Below, in pieces: positions 299 through 55,301 of a DNA stretch of 56,390 bases. The translations under genes and the position numbers were made by a program. How positions within the stretch are numbered: position 1 is the stretch's first letter; every line of letters begins with the position of its first letter. The DNA comes from a virus: positions 1 through 56,390 of IMG/VR virus record IMGVR_UViG_3300006736_003202; one strand, 5' to 3'. The notes beneath the pieces are model-generated. The model searched no databases and was not told the DNA's origin. It was given only the letters and a program-made list of their open reading frames with translations.

Positions 299-1585
299 AT
301 GAAAAAAATAAAGATTTTAACAATCTCTGACCACCCGCTCAGCCCCAGCGGTGTTGGCACACAAACCAAGTATTTTATTGAAGCGCTCTTACGAACAGGG
401 CGCTATCAGTTTATTTGCTTGGGAGGGGCAATCAAGCACAACGATTATACGCCGCAACGTATCGACCCCTGGGGAGACGATTGGCGTGTCTTTCCGGTGG
501 ATGGCTACGGAACACATGAAATGATTCGTTCTGTCTTATCGAAAGAAAGACCGGATGTTTTGTGGTTTATGACTGACCCACGATTTTATGGATGGTTGTG
601 GGAAATCGAAAACGAAATCCGTGCGAATATTCCGATGGTATATTATCACGTGTGGGACAACTTCCCCGCTCCAGTATTCAACAACGTCTACTATAGATCT
701 AACGATGAGGTAGTGTGCATTTCGAAAGTAACCCACCAAATTCTGCAAGAAGTAGCACCAGATGTATCTTCCTGTTATTTGCCCCATGCGGTTGATCCGG
801 CACATTTCCACCCCTACACGACGGTTGAAGAAAAACTGAAAACACAACAGGTCCGAGATCGAATTTTGGGAGCTTCTTCAGAAAGAGTAGCAAATCCCAA
901 AAAGAAAATTTTCATGTGGAATAATCGAAATGCCCGCCGCAAGCAATCTGGAACACTAATTTGGTGGTTTAAGGAGTTTTTGGATAAGGTGGGGCACGAC
1001 AAGGCCATGCTTTTGATGCATACTGACGCGCGAGATCCACACGGTCAAGATTTACCACATATCATCGAGCATCTCGGTGTGGGCGAAGGCCAAGTTCTTC
1101 TTTCAACAGAAAAAGTAGAGCCCCAACACCTTGCAGCCCTGTATAATGCAGCCGACTTCACTATTAATATATCAGATGCGGAAGGATTCGGTCTTTCTAC
1201 TTTAGAATCTCTGGCTTGCGGAACACCTATTATTGTAAACATGACCGGTGGATTGCAGGAACAAGTGACCGACGGCGAAAATTGGTTTGGATTTGGGATT
1301 GAACCTAGCTCCAAGGCGATTATAGGCTCCCTGCAAGTGCCATATATTTACGAAGATCGTATTTCCAAGGAAGATTTTCATGACACACTGCAACGAGCCT
1401 TACAAATGCGACCAACAGTATATAAAAAGATGAGTAAAAACGGACGATTACATGTCCTTAACAATTATAGTTTTGAATCTTATCAACAAAACTGGATTAA
1501 TCTTATGGACGGTATTGTGGAGAAGCATGGTTCGTGGGAAACTCGTCATAACCATCAGCGTTGGCATTTAATGGAGGTAGCGTGA
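299..1585 (+). CDS. GT4-like glycosyltransferase
   Basis: A 428-residue GT-B-fold glycosyltransferase that would transfer a sugar from a nucleotide donor to an unidentified acceptor in the cytosol. The N-terminus has the glycine-rich acceptor-domain loop (SPSGVGTQTK, about residues 16-25). The donor domain carries the GT4 signature E-x7-E at E295 and E303 within DAEGFGLSTLESLACGTP. The length is normal for the family. The start is ATG at 299, with AGGA at 291-294 overlapping the stop of the upstream nuclease gene. No signal peptide or membrane segment is visible. It is the first gene of the sugar cluster and overlaps the next glycosyltransferase by four bases. Fold and class are clear; the sugar is unknown. 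Confidence 0.88.
   Translation: MKKIKILTISDHPLSPSGVGTQTKYFIEALLRTGRYQFICLGGAIKHNDYTPQRIDPWGDDWRVFPVDGYGTHEMIRSVLSKERPDVLWFMTDPRFYGWLWEIENEIRANIPMVYYHVWDNFPAPVFNNVYYRSNDEVVCISKVTHQILQEVAPDVSSCYLPHAVDPAHFHPYTTVEEKLKTQQVRDRILGASSERVANPKKKIFMWNNRNARRKQSGTLIWWFKEFLDKVGHDKAMLLMHTDARDPHGQDLPHIIEHLGVGEGQVLLSTEKVEPQHLAALYNAADFTINISDAEGFGLSTLESLACGTPIIVNMTGGLQEQVTDGENWFGFGIEPSSKAIIGSLQVPYIYEDRISKEDFHDTLQRALQMRPTVYKKMSKNGRLHVLNNYSFESYQQNWINLMDGIVEKHGSWETRHNHQRWHLMEVA
1573..1577 (+). promoter_or_regulatory. Ribosome binding site that sets a GTG start
   Basis: GGAGG lies four bases before GTG at 1582. This supports GTG over an in-frame TTG at 1561, which would add seven residues and has no such site. Confidence 0.6.
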
Positions 1586-2850
1586 AATATAAACTGTTTT
1601 TTAAAGGGCCGCTATTAACAAGATCTGGATATGGTGAACAGGCTCGTTTTGCGCTCCGGGCACTACGCTCACGCCCCGAGTTATTTGATATTTATATTCA
1701 ACCTCTTAATTGGGGACAGACATCGTGGATTAGTGAAGAATCGGAAGAACGAAGTTGGATTGACGCCACTATCGAAAAGACGCTGGGCTACATTCATGGC
1801 GACGGCCAACCACACTTTGATGTGTCGTTTCAGGTTACAATTCCGAATGAATGGGAAAAGAACGCCAGAGTGAACGTGGGGTATACAGCCGGAATGGAGA
1901 CCACCAGAGTAGCTCACCAGTGGATTGAAAAGGGCAACCTGATGGATCGAATCGTGGTGGTATCTAACCACTCCAAGAAAACGTACGCAGACACAGTATA
2001 TACAGCACACAACGACCAAACAGGAGAAGTGGTAGAACTCAAACTCACTACTCCAATTGATGCCGTCAATTATCCTGTTAAAGATTTTGGAGAGTGCCCG
2101 AAGCTAGATTTGGCTTTGGATTATGACTTTAATTTCTTGGTCATGGCTCAATTTGGCCCACGTAAAAATATTCCAACAACTGTTAAGTGGTTTTTGGAAG
2201 AATTTAGGGACGAGGAAGTTGGACTGGTTCTTAAAACCAACATTGCTAAAAATTGTGTGATGGATCGCCAAAAGTTGTTTAATGATTTAAAGGCTTACGT
2301 AAATAGACCCGGCGTCGAAGAACACAAGTGTAAGGTATATCTTTTGCATGGTGACATGAGCGACTCCGAAATTCATTCATTATTTGAACACCCGAAACTT
2401 TCAGCGCTTCTCACCTTAACTCACGGAGAGGGGTTTGGTCTGCCAGTGTTTGAGGCTGCGTATACCGGCATGCCAGTCGTTGCGCCCGGGTGGTCGGGCC
2501 ACCTGGACTTTTTGGTCGATCCTAAGACCAGAGAAGATCATTTTTATAATGTAGAATATGATATTCAGCCGATCCCCGAGAATGTTGTATGGGAAGGGGT
2601 AATCATAAAGGAATCAATGTGGGCCTATCCACGAGAGCACTCAGCCAAGAAACAAATGAGACGATGTTATACCCACCTTACGTCAGGAGAGGATAATCCC
2701 GGAACAAAATCGGCAAAATTTAATGCAAAGCGCCTGTCGACAGTAATGTCCGAAGAAAACCAATACAGCGCCATGGTGAAAGTGGTGTGTGATGCTTTGG
2801 GGATCGATCCGAACGACTCTCATGAAGAAGAAATTATAGAATTTGAGTAG
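1582..2850 (+). CDS. GT4-like glycosyltransferase
   Basis: A 422-residue GT-B glycosyltransferase and the second of the cluster. The N-terminus has a short G-rich loop (LLTRSGYGEQAR). The donor-binding half carries E-x7-E at E283 and E291 within HGEGFGLPVFEAAYTGMPVV, followed by the APGWSGHLDFL stretch common in GT4 enzymes. The GTG start at 1582 shares bases with the TGA of the upstream gene (GTGA), which suggests translational coupling. The C-terminal tail (about 380-422) is rich in Glu and Asp. No membrane anchor is seen. Donor and acceptor are unknown. It probably works in series with its neighbours on one glycan. Confidence 0.87.
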   Translation: MKYKLFFKGPLLTRSGYGEQARFALRALRSRPELFDIYIQPLNWGQTSWISEESEERSWIDATIEKTLGYIHGDGQPHFDVSFQVTIPNEWEKNARVNVGYTAGMETTRVAHQWIEKGNLMDRIVVVSNHSKKTYADTVYTAHNDQTGEVVELKLTTPIDAVNYPVKDFGECPKLDLALDYDFNFLVMAQFGPRKNIPTTVKWFLEEFRDEEVGLVLKTNIAKNCVMDRQKLFNDLKAYVNRPGVEEHKCKVYLLHGDMSDSEIHSLFEHPKLSALLTLTHGEGFGLPVFEAAYTGMPVVAPGWSGHLDFLVDPKTREDHFYNVEYDIQPIPENVVWEGVIIKESMWAYPREHSAKKQMRRCYTHLTSGEDNPGTKSAKFNAKRLSTVMSEENQYSAMVKVVCDALGIDPNDSHEEEIIEFE

Positions 2851-2852
2851 TT

Positions 2853-4478
2853 ATGAAAAAGATAGTATTTATTGCTGATTTCTTTATCGAAGAAATGGGC
2901 GGCGGCGCCGAGATTTATGATAATATATTGATAAACCTTCTTCTCGAAGACGGTTTTGATGTAATAAAATTTAAAAATACTGATTTAACAGATAAGCACA
3001 TCCATCTCTATAAGAATAGTGGATATCACTTTATTGTTTCTAATTTTACTCTTATGAACGATCTGGTATCGACAACCTTGGTAAACAATCCGGGGTGTTA
3101 TAGCATTATGGAGCACGATCACAAATATGTAAAGACACGCAACCCTTCGGTTTATAAGAATTATATAGCGCCAGCTAGCGATATCGTGAATAGAAAGTTC
3201 TACACCAACGCCAAAAACATATTTGCGCAGTCTAAAATACAAGCGGAGACGATTAGAAAAAACCTGCACATTAACAATGTGGTAAACCTGGGAATGAGTC
3301 TTTGGACGGACGAACAGTTACAAATTATTGAGAACAACATCGACAACCCAAAAGAAGAAAATGCGTCAGTCCTTAACAGCAAGAATCCCACCAAAAACAC
3401 ACATGCTGCAATCGAACACTGCACCCAGAAATCGATTCCCTACACGCTGATTGGTTCGCCTAATTATAAGGAATTTATTCAACAATTATCTTTACATCAA
3501 TCTCATGTGTTTGTTCCACGTGTGCTAGAAAGCTTTAATCGCGTTATATTAGAAGCGAGAATGCTTAATTGTAAAATAATAACCACCAATTTAAATGGTT
3601 GTACTTCTGAAGACTGGTTTCCCAAATATAAAGGAAAAGAACTCATAGAATTTGTGCGTACCCAACGCGCCCGAGTTTTTGAGGATATTAAATCCGCCAT
3701 CTTAGATGGCAAAGAAACCGTTGAGGATATTAACATCGCGGACATCACAGTTATATTAAATGCCTATAGGCGTCCATATAATCTTAAAATGCAAGTTGAG
3801 GCCATTCGCAATCAAACAACACAACCTAAGCAAATTTGGCTCTGGGTTAATGCACATGAAGATAACGCAGGGTTTGATTTTGCAAGTGTGGGAGCAGATC
3901 GTGTTTTCCACAATGACTATAATTGGAAATTTTACGGCCGTTTCGCGGCATGCCTATTGGCGGATACCGAACACATTGCAATTTTTGACGATGATACCAT
4001 CCCAGGCAAAAAGTGGTTTGAAAACTGTCTGGAGACAATGAAAACTCACGAAGGTATTCTGGGAAGTGCTGGAATCATTCTTAAAAGTCCGCAGTATATG
4101 AATCATGATCGCTGCGGATGGCCATCTCAAAATGCTGAAACCACCGAAGTTGATTTGGTTGGCCACGCGTGGTTCTTTAAACGCCAATGGTTGCGCTATT
4201 TATGGCAAGAAAAGCCTGTAACGTGGGACAACGGAGAGGACATTCAGTTTGCTTTTATGGCCAAAATTCATGGAAATGTTCCAACTTATTGTCCGCCCCA
4301 TCCGCCTCATGATCGCGAGATGCATGGTTCTATCTTGGGTAATGAACTCGGAATCGACGACAAGGCGACGTCTACCAATTCGGCTGTTTCGCATGCTCAA
4401 TTTTTCTCTGAACGAGATGGGTGTGTTGAGGCTGGATTATCTAAAGGATGGCAAACAGTAAAGGAGATTAAGTTATGA
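2853..4478 (+). CDS. Two-domain glycosyltransferase (GT-B half plus GT2/GT-A half)
   Basis: This 541-residue protein appears to fuse two unrelated glycosyltransferase folds. Residues 1 to about 285 look like a compact GT4-type GT-B domain, with a glycine-rich loop near residue 12 (EEMGGGAEIYDN) and an E-x7-E at E226 and E234 (VLESFNRVILEAR). From about residue 290 a GT2/GT-A domain begins (ADITVILNAYRRPYNL), and a metal/donor-binding DDD lies at residues 379-381 (AIFDDDTIPG). A Trp/Asp/Glu segment (WDNGEDIQFAFM) further on resembles the GT-A acceptor/base region. The GT-B half is short for GT4 and may have partly lost its acceptor domain. It may add two sugars in succession. It starts two bases after the previous stop. 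Confidence 0.78.
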   Translation: MKKIVFIADFFIEEMGGGAEIYDNILINLLLEDGFDVIKFKNTDLTDKHIHLYKNSGYHFIVSNFTLMNDLVSTTLVNNPGCYSIMEHDHKYVKTRNPSVYKNYIAPASDIVNRKFYTNAKNIFAQSKIQAETIRKNLHINNVVNLGMSLWTDEQLQIIENNIDNPKEENASVLNSKNPTKNTHAAIEHCTQKSIPYTLIGSPNYKEFIQQLSLHQSHVFVPRVLESFNRVILEARMLNCKIITTNLNGCTSEDWFPKYKGKELIEFVRTQRARVFEDIKSAILDGKETVEDINIADITVILNAYRRPYNLKMQVEAIRNQTTQPKQIWLWVNAHEDNAGFDFASVGADRVFHNDYNWKFYGRFAACLLADTEHIAIFDDDTIPGKKWFENCLETMKTHEGILGSAGIILKSPQYMNHDRCGWPSQNAETTEVDLVGHAWFFKRQWLRYLWQEKPVTWDNGEDIQFAFMAKIHGNVPTYCPPHPPHDREMHGSILGNELGIDDKATSTNSAVSHAQFFSERDGCVEAGLSKGWQTVKEIKL

Positions 4479-5464
4479 TGTTGATATGTTTCGGTACACG
4501 CCCGGAGTATGTTAAAATTAAACCAGTAATAGCGGCCATCGAAGGTCATATTCCATATAAACTATTATTTACAGGCCAACATACTGATTTATTGGCGAAG
4601 ATCGATGAGCCGGTAGAACGCCTCACGATTAAGCCGGGCGACAATCGACTGGATTCCATAGTTGAATCCCTGATGAACACACAACCAGATATTTTCACTG
4701 ATATTAACTCTGTTCTTGTGCAAGGAGATACTACTTCGGTGTTTGCAATTGCGCTGGGAGCGTTTCATCGAGGTATCAAGATCGTTCACTTGGAAGCAGG
4801 CTTGCGCACTTACAATAAGTTTCACCCGTATCCTGAAGAGTTTAATCGCCGAGCCGTCTCTTGTATGGCGGATATTCATCTTTGCCCAACTGATGACGCT
4901 GCAGCCAACCTTAAGCGAGAACAAACAGACGGCAAGACATTCGTAGTAGGCAACACGGTTTTAGATCATCTTGTAAACACCTCTACCAGCTATAGCTCTG
5001 ATATCGTGGTTACCTTACATCGCCGTGAAAATCATTCAATGATGCATTCGTGGTTTTTAGCCATCGACGAAATAGCTGCCCAATATTCAGACTATAATTT
5101 TATATTGCCCATTCATCCCAATCCTAACGTCAAGAAACACCAACATCTTTTGAAGCATGTAAAAGTGATAGAGCCGCTGCCACATAATGAGTTTATTAAG
5201 CTGCTCGCCAATGCAAGATTGATCATTACAGATTCAGGCGGACTTCAAGAAGAATCCTCTTTCTTAAGAAAGAAGTGCATCGTATGTCGAGAATTCACAG
5301 AGAGAGTAGAAGGAATGGGGACATTTTCCTTTACGGCGACGCCAGATACTTTGTGGGATACATTTGAATTTCTGATTAATGATTATGTTCCCGTTGGGGA
5401 GTGTCCCTATGGCGACGGACGCTCCGCGAATAAGATCAGGAATATTTTAGTTGCGGAGTTGTAA
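4475..5464 (+). CDS. wecB: UDP-N-acetylglucosamine 2-epimerase (non-hydrolysing)
   Basis: A WecB/MnaA-family enzyme that interconverts UDP-GlcNAc and UDP-ManNAc in the cytosol. The family hallmarks are all present: GTRPEYVKIKP (7-17), TGQH (33-36), VQGDTTSV with D85, HLEAGLRT with E107, YPEEFNRR with E121/E122, TLHRREN with H182, and TDSGGLQEE (252-260). These correspond to the catalytic Asp, Glu, Glu and His of Escherichia coli WecB. At 329 residues it is about 40 shorter than typical WecB, but no core motif is lost. The start is one of two adjacent ATG codons (4475 or 4478) overlapping the upstream stop. It suggests ManNAc or a derivative in the phage glycan. Confidence 0.92.
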   Translation: MMLICFGTRPEYVKIKPVIAAIEGHIPYKLLFTGQHTDLLAKIDEPVERLTIKPGDNRLDSIVESLMNTQPDIFTDINSVLVQGDTTSVFAIALGAFHRGIKIVHLEAGLRTYNKFHPYPEEFNRRAVSCMADIHLCPTDDAAANLKREQTDGKTFVVGNTVLDHLVNTSTSYSSDIVVTLHRRENHSMMHSWFLAIDEIAAQYSDYNFILPIHPNPNVKKHQHLLKHVKVIEPLPHNEFIKLLANARLIITDSGGLQEESSFLRKKCIVCREFTERVEGMGTFSFTATPDTLWDTFEFLINDYVPVGECPYGDGRSANKIRNILVAEL

Positions 5465-6261
5465 TGAAAGATTTTACATCCGCTTTCGACAGTCTTCTAT
5501 CTAAAATTAAATCTAAAGAGAACTTTGCCTTTAGCAGGTTCTCAGATGGTGAATTGTTTATCATGCAGAACAAAACCGTGATTTTAGCCAAAGATCATTA
5601 TATCACAGGTGATATTAAGGGACGCAACATTTATACTGAAGAAGAACAAAAGGAATTCCTCCCGGAACGAGATCAATTTTATAGGGAGAAGCTTATTGAA
5701 GCATACCAACATGTTCAATCCAATTATTTCAAGGGAATATGTACCGGCACAGACCCTCATGTAGGAGATGAAAATTTTGCCTATATGATTGATTTACATG
5801 GGGGCGATCATGAAACTTTGACTTTTTCAAATCTTTTAATTAATGCGAACTACCGACGTTTTGTAGAAGAACTACTTCCCCTCTTATCTAAACGACATAT
5901 CATATATGTCGTTAATAAACTGGCCGATGTATCCAGGCTACCTTTTGAAATAAAGAAGACGTTTGAAATAGGCTCAAACTGTATGATTAATGATTATAAT
6001 GTTGTGAACGAAATTAAAGAGTATATTGACACCAACGATATCCGTGATTATGTTATTCTTTGCTCGGCAGCTAGTTTGAGCAATTATGTAATTTATGAAA
6101 ATTTCAAAGAAAACCCAAATAACACATTTTTAGATATTGGTAGTTGCTTGAACCCGCTGCTGGGATTAGAAGGGTGGAAATACACCCGCGGGTATTTAAC
6201 ACATTATTGGTTAAATAGCAAAAGCCCATTTGGAACACAGGTAGACACATGGCAGAATTAA
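5464..6261 (+). CDS. GT-D-fold (DUF1792-like) glycosyltransferase
   Basis: A 265-residue protein with an N-terminal R-F-S-D-G-E segment (residues 25-30). This matches the R-x-G-D-G-E pattern of DUF1792/GT-D enzymes, in which the D-x-E motif (here D28-G29-E30) coordinates the metal and nucleotide sugar. Further GT-D-like features are a central ICTGTDPHVGDE segment and a C-terminal FLDIGSCLNPLLG segment. No membrane segment is seen. It starts in a TAATG overlap with the epimerase gene, so the two are probably translationally coupled. GT-D enzymes are known for extending glycans on bacterial surface adhesins, which would suit a protein acceptor, but the acceptor here is unknown. Confidence 0.68.
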   Translation: MKDFTSAFDSLLSKIKSKENFAFSRFSDGELFIMQNKTVILAKDHYITGDIKGRNIYTEEEQKEFLPERDQFYREKLIEAYQHVQSNYFKGICTGTDPHVGDENFAYMIDLHGGDHETLTFSNLLINANYRRFVEELLPLLSKRHIIYVVNKLADVSRLPFEIKKTFEIGSNCMINDYNVVNEIKEYIDTNDIRDYVILCSAASLSNYVIYENFKENPNNTFLDIGSCLNPLLGLEGWKYTRGYLTHYWLNSKSPFGTQVDTWQN

Positions 6262-6647
6262 GATTGGTACAAAATAATCCCCAATACTGGGAATTTATTA
6301 GAGAATTACGCAACATGGACAATGTGCGCCAGGGATTCATTCAACAAGAAGAAATAGATGAGATTTCTCATGCCACTTACATGCTACAATATAATAATAA
6401 TTTTTGGATTTGTCTTGACAATCAAAAGCCCGTAGGGTATGTTGGGGTAATAGATAACGATATTCGCGTTGCAACTCATCCTGATGCGCAAGGCAAAGGG
6501 GCGGGCTCGTTTATGATTAATGAAGTGATGAAGCTAAATCCGTTTGCTTATGCGAAAGTAAAGCTCGAAAACGAAGCAAGTATTAAATTATTTGAAAGAT
6601 GCGGATTTAAGAAGAAATATTATCTGATGGAGAAAGAAGATGCATAA
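6249..6647 (+). CDS. GNAT-family N-acetyltransferase
   Basis: A 132-residue acetyl-CoA-dependent acetyltransferase. Motif A of the GNAT fold is visible: strand VGYVGVIDNDIRVATHP followed by the pyrophosphate loop Q81-G-K-G84-A-G86. The C-terminal part (AKVKLENEASIKLFERCGF) is the standard motif B helix, where a residue side chain is replaced in the acyl-CoA channel. In a sugar cluster it would most simply acetylate an amino sugar made by the DegT aminotransferase downstream. It overlaps the previous gene by 13 bases and the next by 8. A decayed second copy of its 3' end lies at 7356-7478. Substrate specificity is inferred from context only. Confidence 0.85.
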   Translation: MAELRLVQNNPQYWEFIRELRNMDNVRQGFIQQEEIDEISHATYMLQYNNNFWICLDNQKPVGYVGVIDNDIRVATHPDAQGKGAGSFMINEVMKLNPFAYAKVKLENEASIKLFERCGFKKKYYLMEKEDA

Positions 6648-7359
6648 TCTAGTATCAGAATCAAATGTTTTAGACTGGATTAATGAAAGCGCCAAGGAGT
6701 GTCGTTCCTCTTATCCTATGTTGCAGCAGAAATTGCCTGTTGCAATAGATATTGGTGCTAATGTGGGGGGTTTTTGTATTAATGCACACCCTCATTTTGA
6801 CAAGATATATGCATTTGAGCCATGCTCTTCCAATTATGATATTTTGTTACGAGTGAAAGAAAAATTAAAGATGAATAATGTAGAAATTTTTAATATGGCT
6901 GTTACTGGAAAAAGCAATGAAACACGCACGCTAAAAATACATCAAAATAATCACTCAAAAGATATAAGTTGCGCTGATTTTGATAATGAAGAATTTAAAT
7001 TTGGTAATTTAGGCGAAACATGCACAACTATCTCTTTGTCGGATCTTATGGCCAGCCTGCAAATAAAAAGAATAAATTACCTAAAGCTAGATTGCGAGGG
7101 CAGCGAGTATGAAATACTAGAAAATTTCCATGAACATCATAGAATTAGTATTATTGCAATGGAGCTTCATGGGTTCTACGGCCCAGATCGTAAGCGAGAT
7201 TTATTGCTTTTTTTGAATAAATTTTATCATATTTTACCCTTAGTTAAAAAACAAAAAATACAATTGGAAAATATAAAAAAACAGGCTATGAACGATTTTA
7301 AATTATTACACGGAAAAAACAACTTTTTTTGTTTAAATAGAGAGGCAATTGCCACGTGA
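6640..7359 (+). CDS. FkbM-family methyltransferase (copy 1)
   Basis: A 239-residue SAM-dependent methyltransferase of the FkbM type, usually an O-methyltransferase acting on sugars or polyketides. The SAM-binding motif I is D37-I-G-A-N-V-G43, motif II is YAFEPCSSN, and the FkbM signature YLKLDCEGSEYEIL lies near residues 145-160, followed by IIAMELHG. The C-terminal 40 residues are lysine- and asparagine-rich and the gene is more AT-rich than its neighbours, which hints at a separate origin. It overlaps the GNAT gene by eight bases. It is one of five FkbM-type genes in this cluster and probably O-methylates one sugar position. Confidence 0.86.
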   Translation: MHNLVSESNVLDWINESAKECRSSYPMLQQKLPVAIDIGANVGGFCINAHPHFDKIYAFEPCSSNYDILLRVKEKLKMNNVEIFNMAVTGKSNETRTLKIHQNNHSKDISCADFDNEEFKFGNLGETCTTISLSDLMASLQIKRINYLKLDCEGSEYEILENFHEHHRISIIAMELHGFYGPDRKRDLLLFLNKFYHILPLVKKQKIQLENIKKQAMNDFKLLHGKNNFFCLNREAIAT

Positions 7360-12309: not shown

Positions 12310-13325
12310 ATTTTTCTAAAGATATTAAAAATATACGCATAGATGTTGGTCTTTCATATAATGGCCCAAATCTGACCGCTTGGGCATATGAGATACCTCA
12401 TTGCGCATTGATTGGAATTGAGGCACAAAGTCTTAATTGTGAAGTGTGTGAAGCGCTTCTTCATCTACCATCTATCCGTCTATCCGACATAGAGAAAGTG
12501 CTTTCTATGCACCATGAATACGTCACTGGAAAGCTTGAACCAAACACACCACTACTTTTTCCTTATGAACAACCACCCTATCATCATAATATATATTTGT
12601 TAAATCGCGCACTGGATGATATAAGTGAGGCCGGCCTAAGAACTTTGTATTGTACGCGTAAGGACTTGGGATGTAGTAGTCTTTATAAACCCAAAGAAGA
12701 TGTACCCATAAATAGCGACGGATACGACGAGATGGAGGTTCTTTGTCTTAGTCTTAAAATGATCATGGAGGGTTTGTTTGAGGACAATCCACATATTGAG
12801 TATATAGAATATTTAAAAATTGATGCACAAGGGGCAGATTTGAATATTCTCAAAAGTGCTGGAGACTGGTTGTCTAAAATCGCGATGATTCAGGTAGAAA
12901 CTACAACACACGGCCATTATCACAACACACCTGCCGACGGCCTCATAGAAGAATATTTAACAACCAATAACTTTGTACTACACCATGAAGGTGAAATGGT
13001 AAACGACACAGTAGTAGATAAAATATTTATTAATAAAGACTTTCTTCACCTTAAAGATAAAATTTTAATACCTAATATTGAAGATGAGAGATTCTTTATC
13101 TGGGAGAATACGAGCAGTAAATACCCAGATTTAAAATACATATTTTTGAATACATTCGATATGGCCAAATTCGCCTTTATAAAGAAGGGCGCCTTTATAA
13201 AGAAGGGCGCCCTCGAAGGTATTGACGTCGATAATAATCTGTTCGATGCTGACGTCATAGATATTCACCCAGAAGCGTATGAAACTCAGAAACTTCTTAG
13301 TCACATAGTGGAAGCGTTAATATGA
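12306..13325 (+). CDS. FkbM-like methyltransferase, divergent (copy 4)
   Basis: A 339-residue protein with a weakened SAM-binding core: IRIDVGLSYNGPNL near the N-terminus, then LIGIEAQSLNC, and a degenerate FkbM signature YLKIDAQGADLNILKSAG (usual form K-x-D-x-E-G-x-E; here Gln replaces Glu). Histidine- and tyrosine-rich inserts (EQPPYHHNIY) follow the core. The C-terminal 80 residues carry an 18-base tandem duplication that repeats A-F-I-K-K-G. ATG 12306 is ATGA-coupled; the in-frame TTG at 12288 is unlikely. It is probably still a methyltransferase, possibly on an unusual substrate, but loss of activity is possible. Confidence 0.7.
   Translation: MNFSKDIKNIRIDVGLSYNGPNLTAWAYEIPHCALIGIEAQSLNCEVCEALLHLPSIRLSDIEKVLSMHHEYVTGKLEPNTPLLFPYEQPPYHHNIYLLNRALDDISEAGLRTLYCTRKDLGCSSLYKPKEDVPINSDGYDEMEVLCLSLKMIMEGLFEDNPHIEYIEYLKIDAQGADLNILKSAGDWLSKIAMIQVETTTHGHYHNTPADGLIEEYLTTNNFVLHHEGEMVNDTVVDKIFINKDFLHLKDKILIPNIEDERFFIWENTSSKYPDLKYIFLNTFDMAKFAFIKKGAFIKKGALEGIDVDNNLFDADVIDIHPEAYETQKLLSHIVEALI
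13173..13208 (+). repeat. Perfect 18-base tandem duplication inside a coding region
   Basis: Two perfect copies of gcctttataaagaagggc (13173-13190 and 13191-13208) sit in frame near the 3' end of the divergent FkbM-like gene and duplicate six residues. The lack of any difference suggests a recent slippage event. Confidence 0.93.
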
Positions 13326-13957: not shown

Positions 13958-14953
13958 ATGAGCTATTGGAAAGGAAAAAGAGTAATTGTGACCGGGGGAG
14001 CTGGACTAATCGGTGTTCCGCTCGTAGAGAATTTGGTACACGAAGGATGTGAAGTCACCGTTATTGATAATTTTTTCAGAAGTAAGCCGGAGAACTTAAG
14101 TAGAGTTCGGGAAATGATCGAACTACTTGATGTAGATCTGAGAGATAATCTCAAAGCCCGAGCCGTGATTAGAGACGCCGACATCGTAATTCATCTTGCA
14201 TCAAAGGTAGGAGGTATCGGAGTATATACGAATTGTCCCTACTCAATTATGAGCGATAATGTGCTCATTGACACCAATGTGCTGCAGGCTGCTATGGCAA
14301 ACGGTGTCCCACGCTTTTTCTATGCTAGCAGTGCGCATGTTTATCCCTATGAATTACAAAATGAAATGGATGCGCCCCTGATTAATGAAGGGGACGCTGT
14401 CCCCGCAAACCCTCTCCTTTCTTATGGCTGGGCCAAACTTCAAACAGAGACTCAAATTCGATGTGCTATATATGAAAATCCTAATTTTAGAGCAGCCATT
14501 GCTCGTTATATTGGGGTCTATGGACCAAACCAAGACTTTGATTTGGCGACTGGCTCAGTAATACCGGTCTTTGCGCACCGAGCGATTAAGTATCCCGATG
14601 TGGCCTTTGCGATTTGGGGGGACGGCGAAGAGACACGCTCGTACTGCTATATTAATGATGCAATAGAATGTACAAAATTGATGATTGAAAAATTAGATGA
14701 TTTACGCTTTGTTGGACCGTTTAACGTAGGTTCGGAAGAACAAGTAAAGATTAAAGAAATCGCAGAAAAACTCATCACCATCTCCGGTAAAGACATTCCT
14801 ATTCAGTACGACGAGACTAAAGCAGCCAAAATATTAGCCCAGAACTGTAGTTGTGAAAGTGTACATAAAAGCCTAGGTTGGCGCGCCACAACGTCGCTGG
14901 ACGATGGTTTAAAAATCATATATGAAGACATTACAGCCCGGCTAGCCAAATGA
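13958..14953 (+). CDS. NAD-dependent sugar epimerase/dehydratase (SDR)
   Basis: A 331-residue extended SDR enzyme acting on a nucleotide sugar. The Rossmann loop is TGGAGLIGVPL (about residues 12-22), then SSAHVYP with the catalytic Ser, and the Y-x-x-x-K pair in SYGWAKLQTE. A KVGGIG segment and the RYIGVYGPNQDF segment resemble GDP-mannose 3,5-epimerase and related epimerases. It begins one base after the previous stop (AATAAATG) with GGAG just upstream, and is followed by another SDR gene in ATGA overlap. The exact substrate is open; GDP- or UDP-hexose epimerisation is most likely. Confidence 0.85.
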   Translation: MSYWKGKRVIVTGGAGLIGVPLVENLVHEGCEVTVIDNFFRSKPENLSRVREMIELLDVDLRDNLKARAVIRDADIVIHLASKVGGIGVYTNCPYSIMSDNVLIDTNVLQAAMANGVPRFFYASSAHVYPYELQNEMDAPLINEGDAVPANPLLSYGWAKLQTETQIRCAIYENPNFRAAIARYIGVYGPNQDFDLATGSVIPVFAHRAIKYPDVAFAIWGDGEETRSYCYINDAIECTKLMIEKLDDLRFVGPFNVGSEEQVKIKEIAEKLITISGKDIPIQYDETKAAKILAQNCSCESVHKSLGWRATTSLDDGLKIIYEDITARLAK

Positions 14954-15879
14954 AGATTTTAATAACAGGCGGCGCCGGATACATTGGAAGTGAGTTGGTG
15001 GAATATTTGCTGTTTCCAGATAATCAAGTAACGGTGGTTGATAGTTTAATGTATGAACACACCACGTTGCTTCGCTACGCACAAAACAAGAATTTTAATT
15101 TTATTAAAGGAGATGTCCGCAATTTACACTTGATGCAAAAACTACTCTCGAATCACGATGTGGTTATTCCATTAGCAGCTTTAGTTGGATTTCCGCTTTG
15201 TGATGAAGATCCTCGCGCAGCTCAAGAAATTAACCACGATGTAAACACATGGTTTGCCGAGAACAAAAGCAAAGATCAATTGGTGATCTATCCCTGTACC
15301 AACTCTGGTTATGGGGTAAGCATCGATGGCTCTGTATGCACTGAGGAATCGCCGCTTAACCCTGTTTCTCTCTATGGAAAAACAAAAGTAGCCGCAGAAG
15401 CGGATTATCGCGGAGTAGAAAATCATGTTACGTTTAGGCTGGCTACTGTATTTGGCCCAAGCCCCCGCATGCGCTCAGACCTGCTTGTAAACAATTTTGT
15501 TTTGAAGGCACTAAAGGAGCGCCTTCTAGTTCTTTATGAGTGTGAATTCATGAGGAATTATGTACACATAGCAGATGTCTGTGGTGCATTTCGATTCGTG
15601 ATAGATCACTGGGACAACTGCAAGAACGAGACTTATAATGTGGGCAACGATTCCATCAATATGAACAAACTACAATTGGCCCAAAAGATTCAAGAGCACC
15701 TGCCGCTAGAAATCATTAAAGCGGAATTTACGTCAGATCCAGACACTCGCGACTATATCGTGAGCAGCCAGAAGATTTATGATAAAGGTTTTGAATGCCA
15801 GTTTGATTTAGACGACGGTATTAGACAGCTTGTTACAGCATATGCGATGATTGACGCTCCGTGGTATGGGAATTATTGA
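14950..15879 (+). CDS. NAD-dependent sugar epimerase (SDR)
   Basis: A 309-residue extended SDR. The Rossmann loop is ITGGAGYIGSEL at the N-terminus, the catalytic Tyr and Lys are in SLYGKTKVAAE, and PCTNSGYG holds the Ser/Thr region. VIPLAALVGFPLC replaces the usual LAA segment seen in UDP-glucose 4-epimerases and is a form found in sugar-cluster SDRs. RNYVHIADVCGAFRF is the conserved C-terminal segment. It is ATGA-coupled to the SDR gene upstream. It probably makes a second nucleotide sugar or completes a two-step conversion with its neighbour. Confidence 0.84.
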   Translation: MKILITGGAGYIGSELVEYLLFPDNQVTVVDSLMYEHTTLLRYAQNKNFNFIKGDVRNLHLMQKLLSNHDVVIPLAALVGFPLCDEDPRAAQEINHDVNTWFAENKSKDQLVIYPCTNSGYGVSIDGSVCTEESPLNPVSLYGKTKVAAEADYRGVENHVTFRLATVFGPSPRMRSDLLVNNFVLKALKERLLVLYECEFMRNYVHIADVCGAFRFVIDHWDNCKNETYNVGNDSINMNKLQLAQKIQEHLPLEIIKAEFTSDPDTRDYIVSSQKIYDKGFECQFDLDDGIRQLVTAYAMIDAPWYGNY

Positions 15880-15880
15880 T

Positions 15881-16234
15881 ATGACTTATGTGTTTGATAT
15901 AGACGGCACAATTTGTACGTTAGTTGATGGGGTTTATGAGAAGGCTGAACCGATTCAAGAACGCATTGATATAATTAATAAGTTATACGAGAATGGGGAC
16001 ACTATCATCTTTCAGACAGCACGTGGTATGGGACGGTCGGATAATTCGCCCTCATATGCACACGAAGCGTTTTACGAATTAACGCGCACACAACTTATTG
16101 AGTGGGGTGTTAAGTTCCACGACCTTTTTCTAGGAAAACCTGCAGGTGACATTTACATAGATGATAAGGGAATGAGAGATATTGATTTTTTTACAACAAT
16201 GGAGAAACATGAAAAACCAAACCTTAATTTGTAA
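15881..16234 (+). CDS. HAD-superfamily phosphatase (capsule-biosynthesis type)
   Basis: A 117-residue HAD hydrolase without a cap domain. Motif I is D6-I-D8-G-T (VFDIDGTICT), motif II is probably FQTARG, and the C-terminal GKPAGDIYIDDKGM carries the Lys and the Asp pair of motifs III and IV. This compact form is found in capsule and LPS clusters, where it removes a phosphate from a sugar phosphate. ATG 15881 lies one base past the upstream stop; an in-frame TTG at 15851 is unlikely. The last 26 bases overlap the next FkbM gene. A role in making the heptose or another sugar phosphate is possible. Confidence 0.8.
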   Translation: MTYVFDIDGTICTLVDGVYEKAEPIQERIDIINKLYENGDTIIFQTARGMGRSDNSPSYAHEAFYELTRTQLIEWGVKFHDLFLGKPAGDIYIDDKGMRDIDFFTTMEKHEKPNLNL

Positions 16235-17033
16235 AGAAAATACCAACCCTACGGCGATACAAGAAGATTTTATCAAAGAGGTGGGTGATGCTCGTGGGAC
16301 TTTATTTCTGCTCCCGTTGGAGAATTATGTAGACATAGGAACGCATTACGGCGCAAATGCCTATGAAGCCCACCGTCGCGGCGCACAAGAGATTTATTGC
16401 TTTGAGGCCTCAAGCACCAATGCTGAAATCGCCACCATGCTTTTGGATAGTTGCAATATTACAAATTATAAGCTGTTCAACTATGCCGCGGCCGCAACAA
16501 GTGGAAACATTGTGAAATTAAGAAAAGTTATTTCTGGTGAAAATGGCCGGCTTGAAAATGCATCAAGCGGTCAATATACAATTACAAATTACGAACATGA
16601 GCCACAATATAAAATTTCGGAAGAATTTGAACCATGTACAACTATATCACTAGAAGACATTTTTACATTATGTGATATACAAACAATAAGAACCATGAAG
16701 GTGGATATTGAGGGGGCGGAATATGATTTTCTGATGAATAAGGATTTTAGCAAAGTTGATTCAATGTATGTGGAGTTTCATTGCGGCGCGAAAAAGAATG
16801 AAGAGTTGTGTAGATATTTAAACCAATACTTTGACATTATAATTGCCTATACGGCTGTAGACAACGCCACATATGTGTCTGAAGCATGCGGTGGCCCTCC
16901 CGCTGAGACTCAATTCATAGATATAAATACAATTGACTTTAGCAAAGAGTTGCACAATATGAGTTTCTTAAATAGGCGCCTCTCCGATAATGAAGAGATG
17001 AAGTTTCACCTAAACGATCGTAGGATAAAATAA
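16209..17033 (+). CDS. FkbM-family methyltransferase (copy 5)
   Basis: A 274-residue SAM-dependent methyltransferase. Motif I is YVDIGTHYGANAYE, motif II is YCFEASSTN, and the signature is TMKVDIEGAEYDFLMNKDF. The last segment is nearly the same as in copy 2 (FkbM at 7468), in DNA as well as protein. ATG 16209 has GGAG four bases upstream; a TTG at 16182 would add nine residues from inside the HAD gene. The C-terminal 60 residues differ from the other copies and may set the substrate. It ends in a TAATG overlap with the cupin gene. Confidence 0.85.
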   Translation: MKNQTLICKENTNPTAIQEDFIKEVGDARGTLFLLPLENYVDIGTHYGANAYEAHRRGAQEIYCFEASSTNAEIATMLLDSCNITNYKLFNYAAAATSGNIVKLRKVISGENGRLENASSGQYTITNYEHEPQYKISEEFEPCTTISLEDIFTLCDIQTIRTMKVDIEGAEYDFLMNKDFSKVDSMYVEFHCGAKKNEELCRYLNQYFDIIIAYTAVDNATYVSEACGGPPAETQFIDINTIDFSKELHNMSFLNRRLSDNEEMKFHLNDRRIK

Positions 17034-17392
17034 TGAAGACCTCTTTACCAATGAAACACGTCGATAAAGGATGGGGCTGGGAGCGCTGGATCGTTAACTG
17101 CGAGGAATATTGCGGTAAGTTGCTATTTTTTGAACGCGGAAAACGCTGTTCATGGCACTATCACAAACTGAAGGATGAAGTCTTTTATTTACAGTCAGGT
17201 AAGATGATGGTATACTATTCAGAGAAAGACGATCTTGAAACCGCTGATCAGCTTATTCTGCATCCTGGCGACAATTTTCATGTATATCGCGGCTTGCGAC
17301 ACCAAATGGTAGCTCTCGCAGACTGCGAACTGTTTGAGTTTTCTACCCAACATTTTGATAGCGATTCGCATCGCTTGCTCAAGGGAGATTAA
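17033..17392 (+). CDS. Cupin-fold protein (sugar isomerase-like)
   Basis: A 119-residue single-domain cupin. The metal-binding pattern is present: H42-x-H44 and E49 (SWHYHKLKDEVFYL), and a second motif HPGDNFHVYRGLRHQM. It is closest in layout to the C-terminal cupin of type II mannose-6-phosphate isomerases and to small sugar-cluster cupins. It may isomerise or epimerise a sugar phosphate or nucleotide sugar. It is joined to both neighbours by TAATG overlaps, which argues for tight co-translation. The reaction cannot be fixed from sequence. Confidence 0.82.
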   Translation: MKTSLPMKHVDKGWGWERWIVNCEEYCGKLLFFERGKRCSWHYHKLKDEVFYLQSGKMMVYYSEKDDLETADQLILHPGDNFHVYRGLRHQMVALADCELFEFSTQHFDSDSHRLLKGD

Positions 17393-17784
17393 TGACTCAA
17401 CGTAAATATTTACCCACCCTATCCGAACTTGTGGATAGACTTTCGATCGCGCAATTAAAAGAAGTGTTTATCACAGAACACAAGGAAGAATACGCACAAG
17501 AGATTGCCGATATTTGTCATGACATAGAGATTCTGTTGCCCGAATCAGCCGAACTTATACGAGCAGTGGTAGTACTCTCCCAGATGAATTTGCATATTTG
17601 GCATAATGAGTCCAACTATAGAAAGGGCATTAAGGACGGCAACAACCTTGAACTTACCCACGGATTAAATGGTATTAGAAATACAGCAAAAAACAAGATT
17701 CAGGAAAAACTCGGAGGTCGAAAGGACTACAAGATAGATTGTCTTGCGGCAGACTTTAAAGATTGGGAGATTAGCTGGAAGTGA
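17392..17784 (+). CDS. Hypothetical helical protein in the sugar cluster
   Basis: A 130-residue protein without a family I can name with confidence. It is predicted mainly helical, with conserved-looking features: PTLSELVDRLSIAQLKE near the N-terminus, NLHIWHNES in the middle, and LNGIRNTAKNKIQ followed by an R/K-rich turn. The IWHNE plus NGIRN pattern recalls small DUF4254-type proteins found near glycosyltransferases, but this is weak. It has no membrane segment. It lies between the cupin and the heptose-kinase-like gene, so a link to sugar activation or transfer is reasonable but unproven. Confidence 0.7.
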   Translation: MTQRKYLPTLSELVDRLSIAQLKEVFITEHKEEYAQEIADICHDIEILLPESAELIRAVVVLSQMNLHIWHNESNYRKGIKDGNNLELTHGLNGIRNTAKNKIQEKLGGRKDYKIDCLAADFKDWEISWK

Positions 17785-18533
17785 AGTTTTTGGTTATTGG
17801 CGATAGTTGTACAGACGTGTTTGTATATGGGTATTGTGATAGGATGGCGCCAGCCGCCCCGGTACCGGTGTTTGTAGCAGACAAAGAAAAGAGCAACATG
17901 GGAATGGCCGGAAATGTTTATAAAAATATGCTTTCTCTTGGTGTGGAGTGTGATCTTATCACTAATAAAACACAAATTACAAAAACGAGATATGTGGAAA
18001 ATAAAACTAACCACATGATTATGCGACTGGATTCAGGCGAAGGAAGTGTGGATCGAATAGAGGGTATTGAAGAGATAAAGTATGATGATTATGATGCAGT
18101 TATTCTCTCCGATTATGATAAGGGCTTTTTGACTACCGAGGATATCCGTGAAATTTCCCGCCTACACCCTCTCGTCTTTTTGGACACTAAAAAACTGATT
18201 GGCGATTGGGCAAAAGATATCACCTATATCAAGATTAATGAAGTAGAATATGAAAAAACCAAACACACGCTAAGCGATTGGTGTGATGAGAAAATGATTG
18301 TCACCCTTGGTTCACATGGGTGTCGTTATAAAGACAAAATAATAGGTGTTATAAAAGTGGAAATTCGTGATTTAGTAGGTGCAGGGGACACGTTTTTGGC
18401 CTCTTTAGTATACAACTTTGTTAAGAGAGGCAATATCTATGTAGCAATCGATTTTGCCAATGAATGCGCCACACAAGTTGTACAACAAAGAGGAGTTAAT
18501 ACAATAGGATGGATACAACAATATGACAGATAA
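17781..18533 (+). CDS. PfkB-family sugar kinase, HldE kinase-domain type
   Basis: A 250-residue ribokinase-fold enzyme resembling the N-terminal (kinase) domain of HldE, which phosphorylates D-glycero-D-manno-heptose 7-phosphate. The N-terminus VIGDSCTDVFVYG followed by RMAPAAPVPVF (21-31) mirrors the ISPEAPVPV segment of HldE. The anion-hole motif is GAGDTF with catalytic Asp at D203. It is shorter than the HldE kinase domain (about 320), with the central lid region reduced. It starts at GTG in GTGA overlap. The matching nucleotidyltransferase is a separate gene 64 bases downstream. A hexose 7- or 1-phosphate kinase is the main alternative. Confidence 0.82.
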   Translation: MKFLVIGDSCTDVFVYGYCDRMAPAAPVPVFVADKEKSNMGMAGNVYKNMLSLGVECDLITNKTQITKTRYVENKTNHMIMRLDSGEGSVDRIEGIEEIKYDDYDAVILSDYDKGFLTTEDIREISRLHPLVFLDTKKLIGDWAKDITYIKINEVEYEKTKHTLSDWCDEKMIVTLGSHGCRYKDKIIGVIKVEIRDLVGAGDTFLASLVYNFVKRGNIYVAIDFANECATQVVQQRGVNTIGWIQQYDR

Positions 18534-18604
18534 GAAAAACCAAGGCGAAGGCGTGCGATTGGGTGATGCTTAAAGACGTCTTAACGGGAAAAATTGAATG
18601 GTAA
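18523..18604 (+). other. Short untranslated or remnant stretch between the two HldE-like genes
   Basis: This is the longest gap inside the sugar cluster (18534-18597). It can encode two tiny frames: ATG 18523 to TAA 18573 (16 residues), and a frame open after a stop near 18524 that ends in MLKDVLTGKIEW at a TAA overlapping the next start (ATGGTAA). The second reads like the 3' tail of a lost gene or a translational-coupling leader. No hairpin or promoter stands out. Confidence 0.35.
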
Positions 18605-18990
18605 AAGTGTGGACCAATGGATGTTTTGACATCTTACACCGCGGCCATTTTGAAATGTTAAAACATGCAAAATCGCTCGGAGATTACCTCATAGTAGGCA
18701 TTGATTCAGATCAAAAAGTGAAGAAAGACAAAGGAAATGATAGGCCATATAATTCTGTGGAGGATAGAAAGTTCGCCCTCGAATCGATAAAGTATGTGGA
18801 CACTGTTATTGTCTTTGATTCAACCGAAGACCTTTCACAGATAATTAAAAGTATATCCCCCGACGTGATGGTTATAGGATCTGACTGGAAAGATAAGACC
18901 GTTATTGGAGAAGAATATACACAAAAGCTGTGTTTTTTTGATAGAATAGAGCGTTATTCCACCACCAAGATTTTAGAAGGTATAAAGTGA
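18598..18990 (+). CDS. Cytidylyltransferase-fold nucleotidyltransferase, HldE C-domain type
   Basis: A 130-residue nucleotidyltransferase with the N-terminal TNGCFDILHRGHFEML segment; H14 and H17 form the H-x-G-H motif. DSDQKVKKDKGNDRPYNS and the C-terminal YSTTKILEGI (matching the conserved S-T-T motif before the last helix) are typical of the ADP-heptose synthase half of HldE. Glycerol-3-phosphate cytidylyltransferase is the main alternative, but the neighbouring HldE-type kinase favours heptose. In the fused bacterial enzyme both domains are on one chain; here they are separate. It ends in a GTGA overlap with the 4,6-dehydratase gene. Confidence 0.84.
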   Translation: MVKVWTNGCFDILHRGHFEMLKHAKSLGDYLIVGIDSDQKVKKDKGNDRPYNSVEDRKFALESIKYVDTVIVFDSTEDLSQIIKSISPDVMVIGSDWKDKTVIGEEYTQKLCFFDRIERYSTTKILEGIK

Positions 18991-19937
18991 AATTAGTTGT
19001 TATAACAGGATGTTTGGGTCTTATTGGCTCGTACGTGACACGCAAATGCCTTGAAAAAGGATGGAAGGTATATGGGGTCGATAAGTGTACCTACGCAGCC
19101 AACGAAGAATTTTTGAATGAGTTTTTCAAACACCCCAACTTTACATTTTGCAAAGAGGATATTGCCACTCTTACATATTTGCCGGATTGCGACTGTGTTA
19201 TTAACGTCGCTGCTGAATCCCACGTAGGTAACAGCATTATCGATAGTGCTGATTTTATTAAGACTAATGTAGTGGGAGTGAAGAACCTTTTAGATCTTGT
19301 TCGCAATAAGGCGCATAACGTAAGCGACAGACCGCTATTTTTTCACTTTAGTACAGATGAGGTTTACGGAGATATCACCGAAGGCGAACATATAGAGACC
19401 GATATTTTAAAGCCTAGTAATCCTTATTCTGCCTCTAAAGCAGCTGCCGACATGCTCATTTTAGCATGGTCTCGCACCTACGGAATAAAGTATATAATTT
19501 TACGCCCAACTAATAATTATGGTATAGGACAATACCCCGAAAAACTCATTCCAGTTTCAGTGAAGTTGTTAATGCGCGGCAAAAAGATTAAATTACATAA
19601 TGAAGGGCTGCCAATCAGAAACTGGCTACACGCCGACGATACAGCCAATGCAGTAGTGACCTTGGTGGAATCTGGAAACACAAATGAAATATATAACGTG
19701 GCCGGCGTCTTTGAACAGAAAAATATTGATACAGTAACGAAAATCTGTGAATGTTATTTTGGAGAAAAAAGAGACTGGTCTCCATATTTAGATTTGGCAT
19801 ATGTACGAGAAGGCCAGGACGTACGATATGCCCTTAATGATGACAAGTTACGTCATTTAAACTGGCACACAAAAAAAAACTTTGATGATGAAATTCAACA
19901 TATAGTTGAATATTATAAAAATAATTTTAAATGGTAA
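18987..19937 (+). CDS. dTDP-glucose 4,6-dehydratase-like SDR (RmlB type)
   Basis: A 316-residue SDR of the RmlB type, which makes 4-keto-6-deoxy nucleotide sugars. Rossmann loop G8-x2-G11-x2-G14; FSTDEVYGD with the catalytic T123, D124 and E125; NPYSASKAAAD with Y147 and K151; and RPTNNYGIGQYPEKLIP, all as in RmlB. It is about 35 residues shorter than RmlB. It starts at GTG in GTGA overlap. Its product is the natural substrate of a DegT aminotransferase, which together with the GNAT enzyme would give an N-acetylated amino-6-deoxy sugar. The nucleotide (dTDP, UDP or GDP) cannot be read from sequence. It is the last enzyme gene of the cluster. Confidence 0.87.
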   Translation: MKLVVITGCLGLIGSYVTRKCLEKGWKVYGVDKCTYAANEEFLNEFFKHPNFTFCKEDIATLTYLPDCDCVINVAAESHVGNSIIDSADFIKTNVVGVKNLLDLVRNKAHNVSDRPLFFHFSTDEVYGDITEGEHIETDILKPSNPYSASKAAADMLILAWSRTYGIKYIILRPTNNYGIGQYPEKLIPVSVKLLMRGKKIKLHNEGLPIRNWLHADDTANAVVTLVESGNTNEIYNVAGVFEQKNIDTVTKICECYFGEKRDWSPYLDLAYVREGQDVRYALNDDKLRHLNWHTKKNFDDEIQHIVEYYKNNFKW

Positions 19938-55284: not shown

Positions 55285-55301
55285 AAATAGTTACTATTTA
55301 T
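55285..55301 (+). promoter_or_regulatory. Inverted repeat and AT-rich element before the 334-residue gene
   Basis: AAATAGT (55285-55291) and ACTATTT (55293-55299) form a perfect 7-base inverted repeat around one base, just after the stop of the 1005-residue gene. The right arm (ACTATTTAT) resembles the AT-rich elements in other late gaps. It may be a promoter or operator; the stem is too short and AT-rich for a convincing terminator. Confidence 0.3.

Follow-up and report, generated by a model that had tools for sequence, protein, structure and literature searches.

Relation to described sugar clusters

Sugar clusters are already known in T4-like phages. Those of the cyanophages P-SSM2, S-SM2 and S-SSM7, called 'LPS' (lipopolysaccharide) clusters, contain contiguous nucleotide-sugar genes, a heptose-type kinase, a nucleotidyltransferase and epimerases, with a GT11 glycosyltransferase in S-SM2, and neither Wzx nor Wzy is annotated in the stretches compared. 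P-SSM2 has one cluster near phoH, and the passages of PMC3037559 on such genes leave open whether they work at all and, likewise, whether they change host LPS. Here we describe a glycan-assembly cluster in the window, a 56,390-base IMG/VR virus record (IMGVR_UViG_3300006736_003202) that was analysed over its whole length. The cluster comprises 24 tightly packed genes on the + strand (299–19937), the largest gaps being ~40 and 65 nt. SDRs, a sugar kinase, a nucleotidyltransferase, a cupin and glycosyltransferases stand contiguously in it, the component set that is also named in the relevant passages of PMC7824862, and its kinase was 43% identical in P-SSM2 and 46% identical in S-SM2. However, these two phages lack the glycosyltransferase GT4a, and so the exonuclease-GT4a-GT4b order that anchors the present cluster. 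This anchored, polymorphic layout looks new.

Homologous loci were found in Flavobacterium phage immuto and Microcystis phage Mel-JY01. In immuto the order is exonuclease, a small open reading frame (ORF), GT4a and GT4b, followed by a cassette annotated with glycosyltransferases, two aminotransferases, a methyltransferase, an epimerase and a 'pilin glycosylation protein'. In Mel-JY01 the exonuclease, one other gene, GT4a (as two ORFs) and GT4b are followed by glycosyltransferases and a methyltransferase. Both loci differ from that of the window in their cassette contents, in not lying beside baseplate genes and in their few Shine-Dalgarno-like sites (before 1% of ORFs in immuto and 11% in Mel-JY01).

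Three further viral systems are alike in part. The pelagimyophage host recognition cluster is a hypervariable island bearing glycosyltransferases in marine T4-like phages, but it is located among tail fibres, with VrlC on one side and gp14 on the other, and the accessible sections of PMC7029224 describe no exonuclease-GT4a-GT4b anchor. In chloroviruses the glycan of the capsid is made with nucleotide-sugar enzymes and transferases that the virus itself encodes (PMC4691112, in part); these are eukaryotic viruses, however, and their glycan is proven, whereas here a glycan is predicted from genes. Cluster O mycobacteriophages carry glycosyltransferases and a methyltransferase among the virion genes, which were proposed to modify the capsid, but these are four genes and no nucleotide-sugar pathway is described in the accessible part of PMC4351075. 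Glycans on mycobacteriophage capsids and tail tubes have been reported (Freeman 2023, as cited in PMC12619734). In the sources as far as they were accessible, phage sugar clusters have so far been interpreted as modifying the host surface, or their role has been left undecided, and no test is described. No paper combining 'Far-T4' with 'glycosyltransferase' was found in the open-licence literature, and the word 'glycosyl' is absent from the main text of three Far-T4 papers (PMC4360716, PMC7198788, PMC13037479), in the accessible parts of which phage RM378 is the reference isolate.

Constant edges and mosaic interior of the locus

Relatives were collected by scanning IMG/VR with the gp6-like baseplate protein of the window (495 related stretches) and with its putative sigma factor (at least 590), and the best 80 of each were kept. 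Five large relatives (G016, G004, G007, G017, and G024; 187–203 kb) were taken as near-complete from their length alone. Judged by gene order and protein identity, the left edge of the locus (exonuclease, GT4a, and GT4b) and its right edge are constant in related T4-like phages, and the interior is mosaic.

An exonuclease followed by adjacent GT4a and GT4b was found in the window and, in the same order, in all 80 loci picked by GT4a; the spacing between exonuclease and GT4a was at most 100 nt in 76 of these loci, and the other four had a gap of 1–2 kb. GT4a and GT4b were also present in 23 of the 24 long relative contigs that had been chosen by the gp6-like or sigma protein, that is, without selection for GT4a, and the sole contig without them, G023, apparently begins inside its cassette. 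At the right edge, 54 sigma loci had at least 6 kb of upstream sequence, near-duplicates included. All of them encoded an FmdB-like protein, and 51 a transmembrane protein. A homologue of some cluster gene lay upstream of the sigma gene in 54/54 of these loci, and a homologue of a gene from 2853–19937 in 53/54.

The identities to the window followed the same division. In four large relatives they were 74–85% for the exonuclease, 70–73% for GT4a and 53–60% for GT4b (G024 was left out since these genes are at its other contig end, outside the compared stretch), and in all five they were 62–81% for the sigma factor. The interior genes were absent from the five relatives or 22–86% identical, and G024 had 15 interior genes in common with the window at 45–86%. 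A Pfam tally covered 90 interior proteins of at least 100 amino acids (aa) from these relatives, with three more that spanned a fetch boundary excluded. Among the 25 of 66 families listed, it contained 14 proteins of SDR families, three of CTP_transf_3, two of NeuB and two of GT11. FkbM was not among the families listed and accounted for at most two of the 90 proteins; by this tally the FkbM richness looks particular to the window. The NeuB and CTP_transf_3 proteins hint at phage-encoded nonulosonic-acid (sialic-acid-like) pathways.

Upstream of the locus, the order in G016 was PhoH, two small genes and exonuclease, which resembles phoH, two genes and exonuclease in P-SSM2. The resemblance suggests that the T4-like backbone is old and that the sugar locus was inserted into it.

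Lineage, hosts and cultured phages

The window was assigned to T4-like phages by a weak late-sigma match and by two baseplate wedge matches, which we take to correspond to gp25 and gp6 of T4. By the gp6-like protein, the closest cultured phages were Mel-JY01 (30%) and immuto (29%). The 209 proteins of G016 (195 kb) had 31 matches in immuto, 31 in Mel-JY01, 18 in P-SSM2 and 10 in RM378; for the 212 proteins of G004 the counts were 31, 31, 20, and 9, respectively. The term 'Far-T4-like' for this lineage is a lead that comes from shared-protein counts alone, with no gp23 tree behind it. The lineage is apparently marine, as judged from IMG sample numbers and from the titles of metagenome-assembled genomes (MAGs) among the GT4a-like genome loci.

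A GT4a homologue was also found in the Rhodothermus phage RM378, together with a weak GT4b homologue (E 3.5e-9), beside replication genes, and a profile-level search found no GT4a in P-SSM2 or S-SM2. The original prediction placed the cluster directly before the baseplate genes. This applies to the present lineage, but GT4a lies ~33 kb from a baseplate wedge gene in immuto and ~80 kb in Mel-JY01, so the adjacency is lineage-specific.

The share of ORFs with a Shine-Dalgarno-like site in front was 25% in the window and 32–49% in its five large relatives, compared with 11% in RM378, 16% in P-SSM2 and the still lower or equal values of immuto and Mel-JY01 given above. The phylum of Flavobacterium is described as lacking such sites (PMC6847099, in part). 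The hosts of the lineage are very likely not Bacteroidota, because these sites are frequent and canonical sigma-70-type promoters occur. The pair GT4a-GT4b thus appears to be kept across hosts of different phyla, which an acceptor encoded by the phage would explain more readily than host LPS would.

The anchor pair

GT4a had a mean column identity of 74% over 44 sequences, with E295 and E303 invariant, and GT4b had 60% over 40 sequences, with E290 and E298 invariant; in each protein these are the two glutamates of the EX7E motif. The predicted models (pLDDT 89 for GT4a and 90.5 for GT4b) have GT-B folds. The chlorovirus glycosyltransferase 3oy2 was the best PDB fold match of GT4b and the fifth of GT4a. 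SdgB, a protein glycosyltransferase that was crystallised with an SD peptide, was found at ranks 26, 33, 35, and 50 for GT4b, with weak TM-scores of ~0.45–0.48. As pointers to a protein acceptor, these matches of predicted models are suggestive only.

Streptococcal GtfA and GtfB are paired protein transferases. A model of this type was not adopted for GT4a and GT4b: the sequence match of Gtf1 to GT4a was weak (4pqg, E 0.03; 5e9t, E 0.21), and Gtf1 was not in the 50 fold matches listed for either protein.

In 84,980 species genomes, a scan with two short peptides as query, which distant homologues would escape, found five GT4a-like loci, all beside a phage exonuclease. Four of them were MAG contigs of at most 10 kb, and one was in the chromosome of a WOR-3 MAG.

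Export machinery

The window is a fragment of its genome that starts within the preceding gene, and export genes may lie elsewhere in that genome; the search for them was therefore made in the relatives. Wzx (PF01943) and WbaP (PF02397) were each found in 0/24 long relatives, a set that did not include immuto, Mel-JY01, and RM378, and Wzy_C (PF04932) was found in 0/30 records; the positive controls matched in 13, 10, and 10 of 14 genomes, respectively. Among the 24 cluster proteins, a crude hydropathy scan, run without a known flippase as control, found no polytopic membrane protein and one marginal stretch, at the N-terminus of the SDR at 13958. No protein with at least 10 hydrophobic segments was encoded in the five large relatives. 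Each had one protein (698–912 aa) with 4–9 such segments, and four of them also had a 115–116-aa protein with three. An O-antigen or capsule system of the Wzx/WbaP/Wzy type was thus not found in the relatives; the ABC exporter and WecA families were not part of the search. The cytosolic assembly without an export kit that had been proposed for this DNA agrees with these results.

Promoters and expression timing

A sigma-70-type promoter (at least 10 of 12 consensus positions) was found upstream of the exonuclease in 67/78 loci, usually as TTGACA-17-TATAAT ~45 nt before the start, and in 52/62 loci after upstream regions more than 90% alike had been dropped. The same threshold was reached by 8.7% of mononucleotide shuffles, 15/80 regions upstream of GT4a and 8/72 upstream of GT4b. 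The window begins too late to show its own exonuclease promoter.

The T4 late-promoter consensus TATAAATA was not enriched in the lineage. A k-mer count over 315 intergenic regions brought out ACTATTTA, which was strand-biased (42 forward vs. 1 reverse). Only exact copies were used; with up to one mismatch the motif was at chance level in the window. It occurred 21–28 nt before the gp6-like gene in 50/61 loci. Within 10 kb of the sigma gene in 50 loci, it stood 15–70 nt before an ORF start at 20 of 29 sites on the structural side (eight more of the 37 sites there had no following ORF within the locus) vs. one of 14 on the glycan side. From this placement, ACTATTTA is likely the late-promoter element of the lineage in place of TATAAATA. 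Forward copies also outnumbered reverse ones on the glycan side (14 vs. 2), which at first sight speaks against the reading of the locus given below, but all 14 forward sites were intragenic, and 13 were not 15–70 nt before a start.

The 300 nt before the FmdB-like gene contained no ACTATTTA in any of 59 loci; eight of these loci had a sigma-70-type match that reached 10/12 or more, compared with three of 59 shuffles; the sigma gene therefore has no obvious promoter of its own. We read the locus, from these predicted promoters, as mainly a host-polymerase operon ending in the sigma gene. One result speaks against an exclusively early operon: in 19 of 63 distinct loci, ACTATTTA lay at most 100 nt before PhoH, which precedes the exonuclease by ~1 kb. 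Late transcription may therefore read through into the cluster in some loci.

The original prediction had argued for virion modification from position beside the late sigma factor and giant tail proteins. That argument was not supported: with a sigma-70-type promoter before the exonuclease and candidate late promoters nearly absent inside the cluster, adjacency to putative late sigma and tail genes is no proof of co-expression with virion proteins.

Proposed acceptor of the glycan

We propose that the cluster forms a polymorphic locus for glycan assembly in a lineage of T4-like phages and that the acceptor is most likely a virion protein, to which we would give a little less than an even chance. 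The cluster enzymes would be made early or in mid-infection, and the interior genes would turn host precursors into unusual nucleotide sugars. GT4a and GT4b would put the first sugars on a constant, soluble, phage-encoded acceptor, and the interior transferases would lengthen and decorate the chain. If the acceptor is a virion protein on the capsid or sheath surface, each phage would get its own sugar coat. A phage-encoded acceptor is favoured because a phage-type transferase pair is conserved across host phyla; the soluble acceptor, most simply a virion protein, that had been suggested earlier keeps this support and loses the positional one. Taken further, the locus would act as a phage 'serotype locus': the virions of a large T4-like lineage would be coated with complex phage-built glycans that differ between phages, are attached in the cytosol to a constant anchor by GT4a and GT4b and evolve by cassette exchange like a bacterial capsule locus. 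We regard this extended proposal as possible but doubtful.

The major capsid protein (MCP, 594–626 aa) and the tail sheath protein (931–1117 aa) of the five large relatives had strongly conserved ends and polymorphic middles; in G016 they are encoded at L255:3186-5015 and L254:15897-19247, respectively. These middles are candidate exposed domains and possible glycan acceptors.

Several points weigh against a virion acceptor. Its identity is putative, the MCP and sheath may vary for other reasons, and neither of these two proteins shows a conspicuous Ser/Thr/Pro-rich tail in the five relatives. The GT-B fold is common to many small-molecule transferases, and several of these, such as BshA and MshA, ranked above SdgB. 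In RM378 the pair adjoins replication genes, and the 19 kb examined there hold no other annotated sugar gene. The phage could also borrow the export machinery of its host, and timing by a sigma-70-type promoter suits modification of the host no less than modification of the virion.

The last two points lead to the strong rival, remodelling of the host surface, in which early phage sugars and transferases would use host lipid carriers and export to alter O-antigen or capsule against superinfection or grazers. This is the reading given in the accessible parts of PMC7029224, PMC9602691, and PMC7824862, PMC3037559 leaving the function open, and the gene kit is of the same kind as in the cyanophage clusters. 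The promoter before the exonuclease and the few candidate late promoters inside the cluster fit early expression. However, searches of the relatives by family turned up neither a flippase nor a polymerase nor a lipid-linked initiating transferase. The anchor pair also stays constant with hosts from different phyla, whose surface glycans differ, and GT4a is absent from P-SSM2 and S-SM2 at profile level. We consider this rival somewhat unlikely. The motif before PhoH leaves the standing of the readings unchanged, as timing weighs little between virion and host-surface modification.

Another soluble acceptor, such as a host protein, a small molecule or another glycoconjugate made during infection, is improbable. 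The fold neighbours of GT4a and GT4b include the bacterial small-molecule transferases BshA and MshA and the trehalose and sucrose-phosphate synthases, and a sugar-derived secondary-metabolite cluster has been proposed for a cyanophage (PMC7824862, in part), but the five relatives encode few polytopic proteins able to export a product, and a constant anchor across unrelated hosts would have no clear reason.

Less likely still, and very improbable, is a glycan on hypermodified phage DNA that protects against nucleases and varies with host nuclease variety: phage DNA glycans are diverse (Pyle 2024, as cited in PMC12619734), the anchor pair adjoins an exonuclease and, in RM378, replication genes, and a C5 DNA methylase directly precedes the exonuclease in Mel-JY01 (which also counts against a virion acceptor), but the thymidylate-synthase/hydroxymethylase family (PF00303) was found in 1/11 records (immuto) and 0/8 uncultured relatives, C5 DNA methylase in 2/30 records, one of them Mel-JY01, and Tet/JBP, in a search run without a working control, in none. 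To our knowledge, twenty-plus genes also far exceed the known DNA-glycan kits.

Since a constant transferase pair, kept with hosts of different phyla, stands in front of a mosaic cassette and no export genes were found, the question can be put to a direct test in phages already in culture (immuto, RM378). A glycan on the virions would mean that a large group of phages has variable coats, which could affect adsorption, grazing and particle binding; if the virions carry none, the anchor pair would point to an undescribed common acceptor.

Gene content and other features

Families were assigned by Pfam, NCBIfam and PHROG scans, with ten proteins run against NCBIfam (Table 1). These scans confirmed the families of the original prediction: six glycosyltransferase genes (starting at 299, 1561, 2853, 5464, 8843, and 10344), five FkbM methyltransferases (6640, 7399, 9718, 12288, and 16182), a sulfotransferase, a GNAT acetyltransferase, an aminotransferase, epimerases and a 4,6-dehydratase. 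Close packing on one strand was also as described, with 24 genes in place of about 22. Among the ten proteins, the wecB-type epimerase was the sole sugar enzyme over an NCBIfam equivalog cut-off, and the other substrate names are at family level. An additional module of HAD phosphatase (15851), cupin (17033), HldE-domain-I-like kinase (17781) and HldE-domain-II-like nucleotidyltransferase (18598) looks, by family, like a kit for NDP-heptose sugars.

Table 1. Features of the window around the glycan-assembly locus (bits, bit score; T4 gene names by likeness)
Feature	Position	Strand	Evidence
Exonuclease, C-terminal part, constant left neighbour	1..291	+	Cut by window start; full-length G016 relative (260 aa) matches PHROG exonuclease families
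GT4a, constant anchor glycosyltransferase, GT-B fold (predicted)	299..1585	+	PF00534 49.5 bits
GT4b, second anchor glycosyltransferase, overlaps GT4a	1561..2850	+	PF00534 23.4 bits (under cut-off 26.4); PHROG_2170 glycosyltransferase
GT2-domain protein (C-terminal GT2, long N-terminal part)	2853..4478	+	PF00535 27 bits; homologue in 58/80 GT4a loci
UDP-GlcNAc 2-epimerase, wecB type	4475..5464	+	TIGR00236 233 bits (cut-off 210)
GT-D-like glycosyltransferase	5464..6261	+	PF22882 26.5 bits (just under cut-off 27)
GNAT acetyltransferase	6249..6647	+	PF13508 45.8 bits
FkbM methyltransferase 1	6640..7359	+	PF05050 55.2 bits
FkbM methyltransferase 2	7399..8259	+	PF05050 55.4 bits
Short DegT-type sugar aminotransferase, 206 aa	8226..8846	+	PF01041 80.6 bits, two stretches; identity 86% G024, 44% immuto
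GT11 (fucosyltransferase family)	8843..9733	+	PF01531 87 bits
FkbM methyltransferase 3	9718..10419	+	PF05050 58 bits
Glycosyltransferase Glyco_trans_1_2	10344..11384	+	PF13524 29.9 bits
GDP-L-fucose-synthase-like SDR	11362..12309	+	NF047922 291 bits (below cut-off 500)
FkbM methyltransferase 4	12288..13325	+	PF05050 34 bits
Short sulfotransferase, 211 aa	13322..13957	+	PF03567 35 bits
Nucleotide-sugar epimerase (SDR)	13958..14953	+	PF01370 142 bits
Nucleotide-sugar epimerase/dehydratase (SDR)	14950..15879	+	PF01370 102 bits
HAD phosphatase, EcbF/BcbF-like	15851..16234	+	TIGR01689 27.7 bits (far below cut-off 162)
FkbM methyltransferase 5	16182..17033	+	PF05050 42 bits
Cupin (sugar isomerase type is a guess)	17033..17392	+	PF07883 31 bits; PHROG_7851 (named cysteine dioxygenase) 198 bits
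130-aa protein	17392..17784	+	No Pfam/PHROG match at E 0.01; two Pfam DUFs near E 0.05; identity 86% G024
HldE-domain-I-like sugar kinase	17781..18533	+	TIGR02198 107 bits (below cut-off 345)
HldE-domain-II-like nucleotidyltransferase	18598..18990	+	TIGR02199 123.5 bits (below cut-off 181.5)
dTDP-glucose-4,6-dehydratase-like (RmlB)	18987..19937	+	TIGR01181 296 bits (below cut-off 365)
70-aa ORF opening right edge	19949..20161	+	Read from sequence; small ORF at corresponding place in many relatives
FmdB-like zinc-ribbon protein	20154..20420	+	PF09723 below cut-off; PHROG_1076 20.7 bits; in 54/54 sigma loci
Single-transmembrane protein	20407..20775	+	Hydropathy 2.73 at residues 6–24; in 51/54 sigma loci
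Putative late sigma factor, gp55-like, end of right edge	20744..21439	+	PHROG_234 late sigma 18.8 bits, E 0.0027, weak
Candidate late-promoter motif ACTATTTA	30771..30778	+	25 nt before baseplate wedge (gp6-like) gene; outside cluster
Candidate late-promoter motif ACTATTTA	55293..55300	+	26 nt before gene 55319; same placement before relatives' homologues

Decay of the short genes was considered and rejected, since the short DegT protein recurs in G024 and immuto (Table 1) and the kinase recurs at 33–46% in cyanophage and marine-virus records. A defence function was likewise set aside, with no PADLOC match among the eight of 24 cluster proteins scanned.

Outside the cluster, a 3790-aa protein of the window (34321-45693) had a Laminin_G_3 match in two stretches and was matched in only two of the five large relatives; it is a probable tail fibre or adhesin. 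G016 encoded a full-length GroEL (L252:16384-17961, PHROG_5725), and GroEL was also present in immuto. The WOR-3 MAG chromosome (L304, CP070664.1 1480600-1497526) carried lineage-like genes from PhoH to GT4a, which may represent a chimeric assembly or an integrated phage (provirus).

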